Below, in pieces: positions 1,846 to 14,101 of a stretch of 21,081 bases of DNA. The position numbers were made by a program, and so were the translations under genes. The first letter of the stretch is position 1. Each line of letters starts with the position of its first letter. Below the pieces are notes generated by a model. It made no database searches, had not been told where the DNA came from, and saw nothing but the letters and a program-made list of their open reading frames with translations. This DNA comes from a virus: IMG/VR virus record IMGVR_UViG_3300048033_001543, positions 1 to 21,081 of that record; one strand, given 5' to 3'.

Positions 1846-2556
1846 ATGGCTGCAACATTAACTCTAAGGTCAGTAAAAGGAAGTCCACTTACAAATACTG
1901 AAGTGGACGATAATTTTACAAATCTAAATAGTGAAATAACTACTTTAGAAACTGACGTAGGTACTTTACAAACAGATTTGAATACCGCAGAAGGCGAGAT
2001 TGATACTCTGCAATCTGAGGTCAGCGCATTGCAAACAGCTACTGGCGCAAACTTACCAGAAACCATTGCCGATGTTGTTGGAAATATGGTTACATCTAAT
2101 ACTGAATCTGGCATTTCAGTGGTTTATCAAGATGGAGATAATACTCTTGATTTTGATGTGAATGACTTTACTATCACTGTGAACGGTGATGCCACTGGCG
2201 CGGCAACAATCACAAATCTTGGAAGTCAAACTTTAACGTTAGATATTTCTTCTATCACGGGTAATTTAGCAGTAAGTGGTGACGTTGATGCAGCCAACTT
2301 TAACACCACTTCTGATATTTCTCTTAAAGAAAATTTAAATATTATTGAATCACCTTTAGATAAAATTAACCAGTTGAATGGATATACATTTAATTGGAAA
2401 GAAAATAAAAAAGAAGCAATCGGTATTGTAGCTCAAGAAGTTGAAAAAATATTTCCTGAGTTAGTGGTAGCTGGAAGAGATGGAGTGAAACGCGTTAACT
2501 ATGACTCTCTTATTCCAGTAATGTTAGAAGCAATTAAAGAATTAGCCAAACGCTAA
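1846..2556 (+). CDS. Short tail fibre with C-terminal S74 intramolecular chaperone
   Basis: A 236-aa protein preceded by an AGGA ribosome site. Residues 4-27 (LRSVKGSPLTNTEVDDNF...) are an N-terminal motif common in phage fibres. Residues about 28-65 form a coiled coil (ITTLETDVGTLQTDLNTAEG...). Residues 75-126 are a beta module shared with two other fibres in this window. Residues 156-236 form an endosialidase-type intramolecular chaperone domain (Peptidase_S74): SDISLKEN carries the Ser156/Lys161 pair with the spacing of the catalytic Ser-Lys dyad, and GIVAQEVEKIFPE is the family signature. In this family the domain folds the trimer and then cuts itself off just before the serine, so the mature fibre should end near residue 155. 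It is too short to hold a large receptor-binding head. It may act as a connector or rudimentary fibre, or be a shortened relative of the longer S74 fibre at 12809. Confidence 0.85.
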   Translation: MAATLTLRSVKGSPLTNTEVDDNFTNLNSEITTLETDVGTLQTDLNTAEGEIDTLQSEVSALQTATGANLPETIADVVGNMVTSNTESGISVVYQDGDNTLDFDVNDFTITVNGDATGAATITNLGSQTLTLDISSITGNLAVSGDVDAANFNTTSDISLKENLNIIESPLDKINQLNGYTFNWKENKKEAIGIVAQEVEKIFPELVVAGRDGVKRVNYDSLIPVMLEAIKELAKR

Positions 2557-2577: not shown

Positions 2578-4122
2578 ATGGCCATTAAAGTATCAGGCAC
2601 TACGGTTATTAGTGATAGTCGTGCATTAGAAAATATTACAGATATTCCAAATATTATTAAATCATCGTTTATTGAAAGTCCGACAAACGGATCAACCGAC
2701 ACCGACGTCGGTAAATTTTTTACAGTCGACGTGTCCCCGTTCCAAGCTGTATTTGGAGTTGCACAAACACTAACAATTCAATTAGATAATAATAGTGATT
2801 TTAGTTCACCATTTTATAACGTTGAAACTGTAACGTCTGGATCTGAGGTTACTATTGACGCATCTCAATACAGCTTTCCAACAAGTACTACGGTTTATGT
2901 TAGAGCAAGATATAAAGATGCAGATGGAAACTATAGTGCTTGGACTCCAACTATTAGTTTTACAAGTAGAGTTTCATATGATTATATAATTACACCATCT
3001 ATCACCGCGCCATCCAATGGCGCAACAGATGTAAATTATCAAAGTTTTTCTTTCGGTACCTCAGCGTTTCAAGTCTCCGGTGGATCTTGGACTCATGACT
3101 CTACAGATTGGCAAATTGCTACAGATAGCAATTTCACCGCTCTAGTATTAAATGTCGTTGCTGACACCACTAACAAAGTGTCTAGAACTCCGCCTACGCT
3201 GGACCCTTCAACGACATATTATTTTAGAGTTAGACATAAAAATGATACACTAGGATATAGTGATTGGTCTAATACAGTTAGTGCTACAATGGGTGACCCT
3301 CAAGGTGAAGTTCTTTACACAACTCCAGGTAGCTATACTTGGACAGCGCCCGCTGGTGTTACTGCGGTTAGTGTTGTTGCCATTGGAGCTGGCGGGTCTG
3401 GAAGATCAGATACATATTCTGATGGATCAGGAGGCGCGGCCGGTGGTTTAGGCTGGAAAAATTCTATACCTGTTATACCTGGCAATAATTATACGGTTCA
3501 GGTTGGGGCCAATGGCGGCAATAACAACTCTGGATCCGCAGCAAGCGGTACTGATAGTTATTTCCTCAATACTGGTACAGTTAAAGGTGGCGGCGGCACC
3601 GGCGGAAGAGAAAACTATACAGTCTCTCCCACCGACGCGGGTGCCGAAAGGGACGTCATCGGCGGCAACTATAATGGCGATGGCGGCGGCAATGGCGGCT
3701 GGTCTTATAAAGGAAGTGGTCACCAATGTGCTGGTGGCGGCACTGGCGGGTACACAGGCAACGGAGGGGTCCCATCAAGTAATTATACTGGCTGGAATGG
3801 GATACAGCCGCAGGGCGGTGGCGGCGGCGGCGGGTGCTCTACTAACTGGGGAAATATGAATGGCGGCGGTGGCGTTGGGCTTTTTGGACAAGGCGCCTCA
3901 GGACAAACAACCGCGGCAAACTCAACAACTTCTGCAGCCACTGGTGGTTCTGGTGGCCTTAGTGGGTATTCTGGCACCGACAGGGCATTTTTTGATGTTC
4001 GTAATGCGTCAACAAAATATGGTCAATATGGAGCTGGTGGGCATACTATGATGTCTGGCGCTAATGGGGCCGTTCGTATTATATGGGGTAGCGGTCGATC
4101 GTTCCCAAGTAATGCGTCGTAA
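2578..4122 (+). CDS. Receptor-binding adhesin with Fn3-like and glycine-rich domains
   Basis: A 514-aa protein with a good ribosome site (AAGGAGAA) before its ATG. Residues 1-30 (MAIKVSGTTVISDSRALENI) are a fibre-type N-terminus. Residues about 31-130 and 138-238 look like two fibronectin-type or Ig-like domains, each with strands such as TTVYVRARYKDADGNYSAW and TTYYFRVRHKNDTLGYSDW. From about 244 (GEVLYTTPGSYTWTAPAGVT) a glycine-rich domain follows, with GGGGTGG, DGGGNGGW, GGGTGG and a run of seven glycines (413-419). It ends in GAVRIIWGSGRSFPSNAS, a tail I recall from glycine-rich phage fibres. Glycine-rich tips of T2-type gp38 and related adhesins bind outer-membrane receptors through polyglycine-II sandwiches, so a fibre-tip adhesin is the best call. 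The glycine-rich part is locally GC-rich (many GGC codons) in an otherwise AT-rich window, hinting at separate ancestry. Confidence 0.75.
   Translation: MAIKVSGTTVISDSRALENITDIPNIIKSSFIESPTNGSTDTDVGKFFTVDVSPFQAVFGVAQTLTIQLDNNSDFSSPFYNVETVTSGSEVTIDASQYSFPTSTTVYVRARYKDADGNYSAWTPTISFTSRVSYDYIITPSITAPSNGATDVNYQSFSFGTSAFQVSGGSWTHDSTDWQIATDSNFTALVLNVVADTTNKVSRTPPTLDPSTTYYFRVRHKNDTLGYSDWSNTVSATMGDPQGEVLYTTPGSYTWTAPAGVTAVSVVAIGAGGSGRSDTYSDGSGGAAGGLGWKNSIPVIPGNNYTVQVGANGGNNNSGSAASGTDSYFLNTGTVKGGGGTGGRENYTVSPTDAGAERDVIGGNYNGDGGGNGGWSYKGSGHQCAGGGTGGYTGNGGVPSSNYTGWNGIQPQGGGGGGGCSTNWGNMNGGGGVGLFGQGASGQTTAANSTTSAATGGSGGLSGYSGTDRAFFDVRNASTKYGQYGAGGHTMMSGANGAVRIIWGSGRSFPSNAS
3814..3834 (+). repeat. Polyglycine codon run (seven consecutive Gly codons)
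   Basis: Seven Gly codons in a row, mostly GGC, form a GC-rich simple repeat inside the adhesin gene, flanked by further GGC/GGT clusters from about 3586 to 3870. Such runs can change length by slippage and would alter the glycine-rich receptor-binding region without shifting frame if three bases move at a time. Confidence 0.7.
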
Positions 4123-4144: not shown

Positions 4145-4396
4145 ATGACAGATAAAAAAATGTTATGGAATTCTCATCATAATGGGGATTATTTACAAAG
4201 TCTGAAAACGTATTGGGATATTAGGTATAAGGGTCCTTCTGGTGTAATTGGAACTTTATATGCCTTTCAAGCGTATGATAAAGATACTGCGGTGCATGAT
4301 GCACCACACGCTATTACAGCATGCTCTCAGTTTAGCCCCGATGATGTTAAAGTGCTTAGCGTCGTTGAATCAAATAATTTACCTCAATTTAATTAA
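4145..4396 (+). CDS. Unknown 83-aa protein between adhesin and DUF4376 gene
   Basis: An 83-residue ORF with a GGAG ribosome site 22 bases after the adhesin stop. I do not recognise the family. It has no signal peptide or membrane segment. It is rich in aromatic residues (WDIRYKG, LYAFQAYD) and has scattered histidines (H11, H12, H51, H55). Its place inside the same transcription unit as the adhesin, before a DUF4376-type protein and a terminator, suggests a fibre-associated or fibre-assembly role, by context only. A 15-base palindrome (4291-4305) lies in its coding region. Confidence 0.6.
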   Translation: MTDKKMLWNSHHNGDYLQSLKTYWDIRYKGPSGVIGTLYAFQAYDKDTAVHDAPHAITACSQFSPDDVKVLSVVESNNLPQFN

Positions 4397-4412: not shown

Positions 4413-5069
4413 ATGCCAATTAATTACCAATATGTAATAGAAGTTGATGAGGATGGCGCTGTGCAAGCTGATGCTTTGCCAAAAGCTGTTCCAAATTTCG
4501 CGAACACTCTTAATAAAGATCCACTTACTTTATCAATGGGTGATGTTTTAAACAATAATCATATTCCTTGCGAAGTATATGAGCAGCCAAGGTCAAATCC
4601 AAGACAAACAGTTATCAACAATGGCTGGATAGTTGAAGGCCAAGTAGCATATATTAACTGGGTGTTTGAAGACTTACCAGTTGATGATATTGATACAGCT
4701 GCTTTAAAGCGTGAAAGATATAATGAAATTAATGCGTGGGCCAATAATCAAATAAAAACATCAGCAAAAAATGTTAGTGCTAGTGATGGAACGTCGCTTA
4801 ATGTGCAAATTAGAAATTCAGAAGATATTAGTAATTTAACGTTAATTGGATTGTTAGCTGAAAGAGCTATTAGAACTGGATCTTCGGAAAATGTCAATAT
4901 CATTGATAGTGATAATACTGTCAATGCATTGAGCGCAGAAGTAGCATCCGAAATTGTTAATAGTGTTTTAACATCAATTTCAAATACGAAAGTTAATGCA
5001 TCGACGCACAAATCTGCGATTAATGCTTTGAGTGATAACCAAGATATTATTGATTACGACATTTCGTAA
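4413..5069 (+). CDS. DUF4376-like fibre-associated protein (possible assembly factor)
   Basis: The start chosen is the ATG at 4413, with AGGAAC just upstream, giving 218 aa (MPINYQYVIEVDEDGAVQAD...). An upstream in-frame ATG at 4248 would overlap most of the 83-aa gene in another frame and lacks a ribosome site. The N-terminal half has small beta-rich segments ending in INWVFEDLPVDDID. From about residue 97 (LKRERYNEINAW...) a helical region follows with the DUF4376 pattern: a modified-residue-like DGTSLNVQIRNSEDISNLT, an NTVNALSAEVASEIV segment and a final helix before the terminus. DUF4376 proteins are typically encoded next to phage tail-fibre genes and are often grouped with fibre assembly proteins; the biochemical role is not settled. 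It is the last gene of the adhesin cassette and is followed by a strong terminator. Confidence 0.6.
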   Translation: MPINYQYVIEVDEDGAVQADALPKAVPNFANTLNKDPLTLSMGDVLNNNHIPCEVYEQPRSNPRQTVINNGWIVEGQVAYINWVFEDLPVDDIDTAALKRERYNEINAWANNQIKTSAKNVSASDGTSLNVQIRNSEDISNLTLIGLLAERAIRTGSSENVNIIDSDNTVNALSAEVASEIVNSVLTSISNTKVNASTHKSAINALSDNQDIIDYDIS

Positions 5070-5091
5070 AAGCGTTTTTATAAAAAAACTT

Positions 5092-5120
5092 AAAAGGGAA
5101 TCTTTGGGTTCCCTTTTTTT
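5092..5120 (+). terminator. Rho-independent terminator after the adhesin cassette
   Basis: GGGAATC (5096-5102) pairs with GGTTCCC (5107-5113, including two G-T wobble or G-C pairs) around a TTTG loop. Flanking A residues pair with the T run, and seven T residues follow (5114-5120). It lies 22 bases after the stop of the DUF4376-like gene and before a set of late promoter boxes, so it separates two transcription units. Confidence 0.85.
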
Positions 5121-5134
5121 ATGCGTAGAAAACT

Positions 5135-5142
5135 TATAAATA
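5135..5142 (+). promoter_or_regulatory. T4-type late promoter box (TATAAATA)
   Basis: An exact TATAAATA in the 136-base intergenic space after the terminator. A one-mismatch copy, TATAAATC, follows at 5147-5154, and a further exact copy lies at 5170. It presumably drives the 5206 fibre operon. Confidence 0.65.
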
Positions 5143-5169: not shown

Positions 5170-5177
5170 TATAAATA
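5170..5177 (+). promoter_or_regulatory. T4-type late promoter (TATAAATA) with extended downstream match
   Basis: An exact TATAAATA 28 bases before the ATG at 5206. The 18 bases TATAAATAGATTAAACAA differ by only one base from the promoter region at 12762, which suggests a shared extended element. Confidence 0.75.
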
Positions 5178-5205: not shown

Positions 5206-5535
5206 ATGGCAATTTATGCGAATCTTACTGCTGATCAAGGATCAACTTTTGAATCGTCAATTGATGTGACTGGTTCAGATGGTGCTGCTTTAGATCTCAC
5301 TACATATACAATCCGCGCACAAGTTCGCAAATCTTACAATTCTTCTACTGCTGTTGATTTTACTACAACAAAAGATTCTTCAGGCAATATTGGTCTTTCT
5401 TTATCAGCAACTCAAACTAGTAATATGAAAGCCGGTAGATATGTTTATGATGTTGAAATAGAATCATCATCTGCAACTGTTTCAAGAGTATTAGAAGGGC
5501 AGCTAGAAATTACACCTAGAGTTACGAGACCATAA
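5206..5535 (+). CDS. Small Ig-like virion/fibre protein (109 aa)
   Basis: A compact all-beta protein of 109 residues. The pattern QGSTFESSIDVTGSDGAALD, then YTIRAQVRKSY, GNIGLSLSATQTSNM, AGRYVYDVEIES and VLEGQLEITPRVTRP matches, from memory, a small structural protein found in many marine T4-like phages and resembles N-terminal attachment domains of baseplate or fibre proteins (BppU-type fold). It opens the second fibre operon, just downstream of two late promoter boxes. The ribosome site is weak (AAGGG, 11 bases upstream). A fibre or baseplate attachment role is likely but inferred. Confidence 0.7.
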   Translation: MAIYANLTADQGSTFESSIDVTGSDGAALDLTTYTIRAQVRKSYNSSTAVDFTTTKDSSGNIGLSLSATQTSNMKAGRYVYDVEIESSSATVSRVLEGQLEITPRVTRP

Positions 5536-12808: not shown

Positions 12809-14101
12809 ATGAGCACTCTAGTTGTTTCAAATATTGTCCCATCTGGAAATTCATTGACAGTAGATACTGCCCAAACGGTATTTGATTCTACAGATTCAAT
12901 TAAAATTCCGGTTGGCACTACTGCAAATCGACCACTCACGCCAAGTGCTGGTATGATCAGATATAATTCATCAACTTCTCAATACGAAGGATATGGACCA
13001 GGTGGAGCATGGGGCTCTTTAGGCGGACTTATCGATGTTGACCAAGACACATATATTTTAGCAGAAACTTCTGCTGGAAATGATGATGATACGTTGACGA
13101 TGTATGCAGGAGGAACAAATATTGCTTCCCTTGGATCTTCAAATTTTAATGTAAAAATCGCGGCTGACTTTGATTCTACGCTGAATGTTGATGGAGCATT
13201 AACTGCAGCATCATTAAACATAGGAACCGGAGCATTAGTTGCTGGGTCTTTAGATATTTCAGGTAATGCCGATATTGATGGCACTATGGAAGCAGATGCT
13301 TATACAGTAAATGGTACCGCTTTAAATGAATATATTGCTGATACTGTTGGAGCTATGGTATCTTCAAATACTGAATCTGGTATTTCTGTAGTTTATCAAG
13401 ATGCTGATAATACCCTTGATTTTGATGTTGGCGATTTTAGTGTTACATTAACAGGAGCAGTTACAGGTTCAGGTACTGTTACTAATTTAGGTAATGTTAG
13501 TATCGCGACAACTGCAACATCTGATCCAACTATTACATTAACTGGTGCTGTTACTGGTTCAGCAACAATGACAAATCTTGGTGACGTAAGTATTGCTACA
13601 ACAGCAACAGCTGATCCAACATTAACTTTAGCTGGAGATGCTTCTGGTTCAGCAACATTTACCAACTTAGGAAATGCAACTCTTACTGTTACTGTTGCAA
13701 ATGATTCGCACACTCACGATGGTAGATATTACACAGAATCTGAATCTGATTCAAGATTTGTTAATTCTTCTGGGGATTCAATGTCTGGTAACCTAACAGT
13801 TACTGGTGACGTTACTGCGACAAACTTTAATGCTACTTCTGATGCATCTGTTAAAAGCGACATTATGACTATTGATTCTCCGCTAATGACTTTATCTAAT
13901 CTTAGAGGTGTTAACTTTGATTGGAAATCTACTGGAACAAAATCTATGGGTGTTGTTGCTCAAGAAGTTGAAAAGGTATTACCTTATCTAGTTTCTACAG
14001 ATTCTAATGGTTTGAAATCAGTTAACTATCAGGCAATGGTTGGTCTATTAATTGAATCAGTAAAAGATCTACAAGCTCAGGTAGCAAAACTTTCTAAGTA
14101 A
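12809..14101 (+). CDS. Tail fibre with HxH motif and C-terminal S74 chaperone (430 aa)
   Basis: A 430-aa fibre with an AGGATAGG ribosome site. Residues 36-90 (GTTANRPLTPSAGMIRYN...) are shared with the 11421 fibre. Residues 176-228 are shared with the 1846 and 5940 fibres. Three exact-length 30-residue repeats follow at 211-240, 241-270 and 271-300 (TLTGAVTGS.T.TNLG.VSIATTAT.DP). Residues 299-312 (DSHTHDGRYYTESE) carry an HTH histidine pair; in T4-type fibres such HxH motifs bind a metal ion on the trimer axis. Residues 344-430 form an S74 intramolecular chaperone with the Ser344/Lys349 pair (SDASVKSD) and the GVVAQEVEKVLPY signature. Self-cleavage before Ser344 is expected, leaving a tip formed by the repeats and the HxH region. 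It lies directly before gp13, where T4 carries the whisker fibritin gene wac, but the domain make-up is that of a fibre, not fibritin. Confidence 0.87.
   Translation: MSTLVVSNIVPSGNSLTVDTAQTVFDSTDSIKIPVGTTANRPLTPSAGMIRYNSSTSQYEGYGPGGAWGSLGGLIDVDQDTYILAETSAGNDDDTLTMYAGGTNIASLGSSNFNVKIAADFDSTLNVDGALTAASLNIGTGALVAGSLDISGNADIDGTMEADAYTVNGTALNEYIADTVGAMVSSNTESGISVVYQDADNTLDFDVGDFSVTLTGAVTGSGTVTNLGNVSIATTATSDPTITLTGAVTGSATMTNLGDVSIATTATADPTLTLAGDASGSATFTNLGNATLTVTVANDSHTHDGRYYTESESDSRFVNSSGDSMSGNLTVTGDVTATNFNATSDASVKSDIMTIDSPLMTLSNLRGVNFDWKSTGTKSMGVVAQEVEKVLPYLVSTDSNGLKSVNYQAMVGLLIESVKDLQAQVAKLSK
13439..13708 (+). repeat. Three 90-bp repeats (30 aa each) in the S74 fibre
   Basis: Three in-phase 90-base units (13439-13528, 13529-13618, 13619-13708) encode related 30-residue beta units. 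The first two are most alike (TLTGAVTGS...TNLG.VSIATTAT.DP). The third has diverged (TLTLAGDASGSATFTNLGNA). Confidence 0.85.

Follow-up and report, generated by a model that had tools for sequence, protein, structure and literature searches.

A predicted fibre-tip adhesin with a glycine-rich head in a putative host-recognition cassette of an uncultured T4-like marine myovirus

Introduction

Glycine-rich tips with chaperones, variable segments, the sharing of fibre modules and hypervariability in host recognition are already in print, in the passages of four papers that treat them (PMC9608196, PMC6851490, PMC10579305, PMC3909814). The closest described system is cyanophage Pam3, whose fibre gp24 has been solved together with its cognate chaperone gp25 (PDB 7ypx and 7yfw; PMC9608196). 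In the description of that structure, gp24 has a conserved glycine stem and a hypervariable distal tip proposed as receptor site, and its motifs adopt angles that the authors consider close to beta-sheet (PMC9608196). The passages on gp38 of Salmonella phage S16 (6F45) describe a tip whose glycine-rich motifs are split by hypervariable segments and proposed to bind the receptor; gp38 caps a separate protein, gp37, and combines a beta-helix with a polyglycine-II lattice (PMC6851490). In Alteromonas phages A5 and V22, a host-recognition module of a fibre with its cognate chaperone is reported as common to distant phages; the main text of that paper describes no glycine-rich head and does not use the word glycine (PMC10579305). 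Marine metaviromic islands, known through read recruitment, are described as carrying host-recognition genes, such as fibres and gp38-type adhesins, that vary between near-identical phages (PMC3909814). In experimental evolution of cyanophage S-TIM4, hypervariable regions were reported to show no enrichment of mutations; the authors state that natural diversification also proceeds by allelic exchange (PMC6224464).

The adhesin described here is of this known kind, with a head type already solved in Pam3. It is predicted to share with gp24 a head made of a TNF-like sandwich and a glycine-rich lattice, and both proteins have a conserved glycine stem with variable positions. While gp24, of about 280 amino acids, has a helical bundle at its N-terminus and lacks Fn3 domains, our adhesin has 514 amino acids and Fn3-like domains. 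A possible chaperone gene, DUF4376-like, lies downstream and is at most a candidate counterpart of gp25. Splitting of the glycine-rich motifs by variable segments is common to S16 gp38; the head is here fused to its own shaft, whereas gp38 caps gp37 and a relative of our phage (contig L102) encodes the head as a separate gene. A fibre with a dedicated chaperone is possibly shared with A5 and V22. Variation of host-recognition genes between near-identical phages is shared with the metaviromic islands, the difference being that we describe the replacement of genes, with its edges in the sequence, within a single lineage.

What our analysis adds for this lineage is an assignment of the fold, the edges of the cassette and a decomposed codon signal. 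The host-recognition cassette of an uncultured T4-like marine lineage thereby gains sequence edges, and a glycine-rich gene of the PF21722 type, often annotated as hypothetical, is now linked to a fibre-tip fold of solved structure. There is a warning as well: shifts of GC and glycine codons in glycine-rich genes should not be taken for transfer unless amino-acid and next-codon controls are applied.

Results and Discussion

The window, meaning the whole stretch of 21,081 bases analysed, is the IMG/VR virus record IMGVR_UViG_3300048033_001543. By comparison, its genes follow the neck-terminase-sheath-tube order of T4, and its terminase shares 70% identity with that of Phage C48C1 (Kyanoviridae) and 44.8-47.1% with others, among the best 25 of 2595 records. 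The virus is a T4-like marine myovirus of an uncultured lineage. The C48C1 record is a complete genome with its host unstated; a psbA-family search gave no match in C48C1 and one in cyanophage S-CREM1, and a cyanobacterial host is thus not indicated.

The adhesin gene occupies positions 2578-4122, exactly the open reading frame of 514 amino acids that the earlier note had proposed to encode two Fn3/Ig-like domains and a glycine-rich head. This architecture was confirmed by PF25788 and PF21722, both above their cut-offs, and by Fn3 alignments of the predicted structure. The protein starts with an N-terminal plug of 11 codons (2578..2610), followed by a shaft of two Fn3/Ig-like domains (amino acids 29-240, 2662..3297) and the glycine-rich head, predicted to be the receptor-binding part (amino acids 241-514, 3298..4119). 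Within the head, a core (amino acids 335-431, 3580..3870) shows the strongest shift to GGC and to C-ending codons. All the features of the cassette and its two neighbours lie on the plus strand. PF25788 covers amino acids 192-239 of the shaft (30.9 bits, cut-off 27.4), and PF21722 (Gly_rich_2) covers amino acids 248-469 of the head with 35.1 bits, passing the curated threshold of 24.3, and with 42.1 bits in the genome search. The best phage family of the adhesin is phrog_4474 (3.5e-47), most of which is covered (profile positions 17-398 of 407). In the heads of the related contigs L086 and L102, phrog_4474 is strong and PF21722 falls below its cut-off (16.4 and 23.1 bits). The N-terminus had no match in phage records, and sequence searches of solved structures with the adhesin returned nothing convincing.

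Further information was obtained from an AlphaFold model of the adhesin, built on 50 sequences, with a mean pLDDT of 75.4. Amino acids 1-44 fall below 50; the Fn3-like domains come next, with no long helices. The first of them is modelled better than the second, which is partly unmodelled (pLDDT 44-48 in blocks of amino acids 131-170). Amino acids 43-132 and 43-240 of the model align with Fn3 domains and tandems at Z of about 6-7, a level that the tool calls common. In the head, 22 of 28 ten-residue blocks have a pLDDT of at least 80, the lowest block being 55. The best Foldseek match of the head model is Pam3 gp24 (E 8.6e-8), which aligns with amino acids 241-506 at Z 17.1 (rmsd 3.1, 178 residues, 28% identity); the second Pam3 fibre entry gives Z 16.1. 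The head model also aligns with the Bxb1 tail tip (Z 12.7) and with the glycine-rich domain of ALK/LTK at Z 7.4-8.9, where the tool warns of common arrangements below about 8. S16 gp38 (6F45) is absent among the 50 matches listed, which is no argument either way. A search of predicted viral structures gave a glycine-rich protein of Prochlorococcus phage P-SSM2 as best match. According to this model, the head is predicted to be a tip of the Pam3 gp24 type, a TNF-like sandwich with a glycine-rich lattice. An alignment of 50 heads shows half of its positions to be variable (137/274), while the conserved half holds 63 of the 77 glycines.

A cultured relative in S-CREM1 is annotated as collagen-like protein and some phages hold many such heads (11 PF21722 matches in Bellamy), which would suit a collagen-like or structural decoration protein instead of a receptor-binding tip. 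We consider this very improbable, since the gene sits among fibre and baseplate-type genes, the modelled head has a fibre-tip fold, and variable loops alternate with conserved glycine strands. PF21722 is present in 6 of 9 Kyanoviridae records searched. In Mosig it lies in a protein annotated as hypothetical, whose gene comes right after a putative tail fibre gene, and in S-CAM8 in a gene five genes past a fibre gene.

The adhesin is preceded by a conserved neighbour, an S74-chaperone fibre gene (1846..2556; PF13884, 59.1 bits), 84% identical in L086 and 53-60% in L102, L093 and L087. It is followed by two further cassette genes. The first (4145..4396) encodes 83 amino acids, possibly an accessory protein or chaperone, with no match in phage records and a weak relative in the L086 cassette (22% identity over 58 amino acids, E 3e-5 for one comparison). 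The second (4413..5069) encodes the 218-amino-acid DUF4376-like protein, a possible adhesin chaperone, whose PF14301 score of 24.7 bits is just below the cut-off of 25; it shares phrog_4998 with a 216-amino-acid gene of the L086 cassette, and neither phage records nor a peptide-pattern search of viral contigs yielded a relative of it. A model of this possible chaperone, built on 4 sequences, reached a pLDDT of 33.5. The right edge is marked by a putative terminator-like hairpin with a T run (5096..5121), read off the sequence, and by two TATAAATA boxes (5135-5142 and 5170-5177), putative T4-type late promoters. We take TATAAATA to be the T4 late-promoter box. It occurs 8 times in the window, a number reached by none of 100 shuffles; both boxes are invariant in 5 aligned loci, and in 97 of 113 loci, some of them redundant, the motif lies at most 150 nt upstream of the next gene. 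Beyond them lies the conserved right neighbour (5206..5535; phrog_1084, 8e-27), 96% identical in L102 and 90% in L086.

Between these neighbours, related phages carry different genes. Downstream of position 5081, the window matches L102 at 96.4% over 5.7 kb and L094 at 95.5% over 7.3 kb; between L102 and L094 the identity is 99.96% over 6.9 kb. In L102, a 152-amino-acid plug protein, a separate 297-amino-acid glycine-rich protein and a Phage_tail_APC protein replace the adhesin and its two followers; the L094 contig starts inside the glycine-rich gene. As the three proteins left of the slot in L102 are only 53-69% identical to those of the window, the near-identical stretch begins at the right edge of the slot. 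The L087 slot (about 4.7 kb) holds a plug protein with He_PIG domains and PF21722, a tryptophan halogenase and a DUF4376 protein; the L093 slot (about 8 kb) holds an S74-like fibre and several further genes. DNA identity to the window ends at 2610 in L102 and L087, the left edge of the cassette, and at 2927 in L086, and it resumes at 5081 in L102 and L094 and at 5116 in L086. The left neighbour and the plug slot are spanned by 5 contigs including the window, four of them with a glycine-rich head, which is absent in L093. The plug motif occurs in 6 distinct contigs, window included; among 94 entries of distant relatives with the right neighbour, duplicates included, 11 have the plug and 18 a glycine-rich gene. 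Judged from these sequences, the slot appears to be a hypervariable host-recognition cassette, with different genes on near-identical phages (L102 against the window), and positional replacement provides the best evidence for exchange. Three adhesins come with three different right-hand gene sets. The right-hand genes thus change along with the adhesin, as expected of dedicated chaperones, and one or both genes after the adhesin may act as folding chaperone.

The slot genes of two relatives deserve mention on their own. The tryptophan halogenase of L087 (L087:6981-8474; PF04820, 4.7e-100) lies within the adhesin cassette, and in L093:4006-9295 the slot genes resemble, by eye, glycosyltransferases, a sulfotransferase and a nucleotidyltransferase.

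Only L086 keeps the architecture of the adhesin. Its plug is identical at 23 of 28 positions, its shaft domains at 59 and 45%, and its head at 40-44% (21-38% at non-glycine positions), whereas 15 of the 17 other shared genes are 84-98% identical, the two others 65 and 69%. This pair bears on the possibility that head and backbone were inherited together and that the head evolves fast, its C-ending bias being a local mutational or selective feature. L086 carries the same architecture at the same position, its head is similarly biased (GGC 0.40, non-Gly GC3 0.33), and a clade of both heads was not rejected (p-AU 0.846, the constrained tree scoring better than the unconstrained one). Replacement of the whole cassette in L102, L087 and L093 and the gap between the head and most shared genes argue against such inheritance as the general account, which we regard as rather unlikely, even if the head change within the window and L086 pair may have been vertical. 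FastTree separated the heads of the window, L086 and L102 from one another, with modest support, and 27 of 47 inner branches of the IQ-TREE head tree are open; we left head phylogeny out of the evidence for exchange. The earlier note had proposed acquisition or domain exchange of the receptor-binding part. Exchange is supported at the level of the cassette, replaced in close relatives; the comparison gave no clear instance of a domain exchange apart from the shaft, as the sole relative that keeps the shaft has a diverged, possibly vertical head. One head shared by all relatives and co-diverging with their backbones, the result that the note had named as refuting, was not found.

We prefer exchange of a cassette encoding a tip adhesin with plug, Fn3 spacer, glycine-rich receptor head and folding helpers, and we think it probable that this is the best explanation of the locus. 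The short N-terminal plug would dock the adhesin to the virion, and the two Fn3-like domains would serve as spacer. The head would consist of a beta-sandwich that extends into glycine-rich strands packed as a lattice, with variable loops that could touch the host surface receptor, while one or both following genes may help the adhesin fold. A common plug could seat different adhesins in one virion socket, and the block of terminator and promoters would insulate the next transcription unit, so that homologous recombination between the plug on the left and this block on the right would swap a complete unit.

We propose the adhesin as prime host-range candidate of the phage, in agreement with the earlier note, while a second fibre gene (12809-14101) also varies. 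The latter, with an S74 domain, is just 65% identical in L096, where adjoining genes are 94-98% identical, and its DNA identity to L004 and L005 breaks at about 13582-13800.

The earlier note had also called the adhesin GC-rich in an AT-rich genome and had seen a switch of its glycine codons to GGC. The first claim applies to the head (GC 0.535; 0.601 in the core) and not to the whole gene, since the shaft (0.387) is close to the other coding DNA (0.376). The GC of the head exceeds that of all 1000 draws of the same amino acids from the codon usage of the phage (0.474 ± 0.008); amino acids account for 62% of the excess and codon choice for 38%. The switch is genuine. The head uses GGT 20, GGA 12, GGC 35 and GGG 10 times (n=77), as compared to about 290, 131, 94 and 25 in 19 other genes (n=540; Fisher test for GGC 2.5e-7), and the GGC:GGT ratio is 35:20 against 97:290 in other genes (p 5e-8). 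In the core, GGC makes up 24 of 38 glycine codons. Other amino acids follow, with non-Gly GC3 of 54/188 in the head and about 1004/5528 elsewhere (p 5e-4). In the core, whose boundaries were picked after looking, the C:T ratio of non-Gly codons is 17:22 against 617:2642 elsewhere (p 6e-4), and among 453 overlapping windows of 97 codons taken elsewhere, 1 equals this C share. Another C-ending patch, also picked post hoc, lies in the first Fn3 domain (2662-2757, amino acids 29-60; non-Gly C:T 10:7 against 617:2642, p 3e-4).

The GGC switch could reflect translation and not transfer, GGC being preferred because GGA followed by glycine gives a GGAGG, which is Shine-Dalgarno-like according to the passage on this motif in PMC4046918, and because GGT-GGT is slow. 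The leader-peptide assay in Salmonella described there found GGU-GGU slower than GGU alone and GGC-GGC like GGC alone; the same account has GGA-GGU at one site no slower than single codons, reading being slowed only if it was placed earlier (PMC4046918). GGC is commoner in glycine runs than at isolated glycines in 67 of 78 heads surveyed, GGA in only 8, and in the head of the window it accumulates in runs (0.60 as compared to 0.45 in shuffles, p 0.001), as in the L086 and L087 heads; L102 was not significant. Before a glycine codon, the GGA fraction is 0.12-0.14, compared with 0.32 if the following codon begins with a base other than G, and the GGC fraction 0.29-0.34, compared with 0.19-0.22; this effect, by which GGA is avoided and GGC and GGT are favoured, is alike in other genes. 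The shift also reaches the non-Gly codons in the core, and glycine runs in the other genes of the phage use GGT (55/85), both of which speak against translation as the whole cause. The next-codon rule explains part of the switch and not the preference of this head for GGC over GGT; as a full account, translation is conceivable and not the one we favour.

As the GC is mostly forced by glycine and the GGC preference is partly a next-codon effect, the codon switch is weaker evidence for transfer than the earlier note had supposed. The odd composition of the head is real and only partly a sign of foreign origin, with which the residual shift of C for T, including the non-Gly codons of amino acids 335-431, would fit. 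Searches of viral contigs, genome contigs and phage DNA found no near-identical donor; the head DNA matched phage DNA over 54 bases at 79.6%, in S-CREM1 only, and two relatives appeared among genome contigs, in a Patescibacteria assembly (46% over about 100 residues) and an Acidithiobacillales assembly (53% over 74).

Three other sources of the codon pattern were considered and not retained. Conservation of the glycine codons as recombination DNA was rejected, as, at aligned glycines of the window and L086 proteins, the third base agrees in 16 of 56 cases within the head and in 20 of 67 over the full protein. Slippage of GGC repeats was not adopted: same-codon neighbours make up 14 of 28 pairs in the window against 8.6 expected (p 0.02), an excess over shuffles that is absent in L086, L102 and L087. 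Neither was mRNA structure, the core folding energy of -102.7 being borderline with respect to synonymous reshuffles (-90.2 ± 6.4, z -1.96).

To our search, the literature matches listed contained no paper on glycine codon use in phage glycine-rich heads. We surveyed 84 loci (the best 80 of 275 relatives plus the window, L086, L102 and L087), reduced to 78 after dropping near-identical heads and to 72 with at least 3 other genes. Heads were found by similarity to that of the window, a non-random sample, and defined by a glycine threshold in mechanically picked open reading frames. GGC exceeds the local background in 55 of the 78 distinct heads, window included (median +0.03), and in 37 of 41 heads of AT-rich loci (median +0.07). 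In three cultured phages, the GGC fraction of the glycine-rich protein or head amounts to 0.16-0.20, that of flanking genes to 0.07-0.16. The window has an excess of +0.30, narrowly first of 78. For Gly GC3, its excess leads the 72 heads and exceeds that of every one of the 176 single genes in AT-rich loci that have 15 glycines or more. The excess at non-Gly codons is comparatively ordinary (98th percentile among 273 single genes, below that of L086).

Non-Gly GC3 of the 72 heads, amino-acid matched, follows that of the resident genome with a slope of 0.64 ± 0.045, while the other genes of these loci give 0.96 (0.85-1.08); for Gly GC3 the slopes are 0.76 and 0.95 (0.78-1.11). The shift is one-sided, with all 22 GC-rich heads below expectation and 20 of 37 AT-rich heads above it, which is no general rise. 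We tentatively suggest, as one possibility among others, that glycine-rich heads form a gene pool crossing unrelated phages and genome-GC boundaries faster than their codons adapt, to which the translation of oligo-glycine adds a codon rule. A GC limit in glycine-rich mRNA may also yield a one-sided low slope.

Finally, 29 bases of the head (3454-3482) are identical in several glycine-rich genes of contigs L002 and L003. The L003 record has a terminase only 34% identical to that of the window, and none was found in the L002 record. The records behind L001-L003 (L001:1-16294) contain five PF21722 matches each, in several frames.
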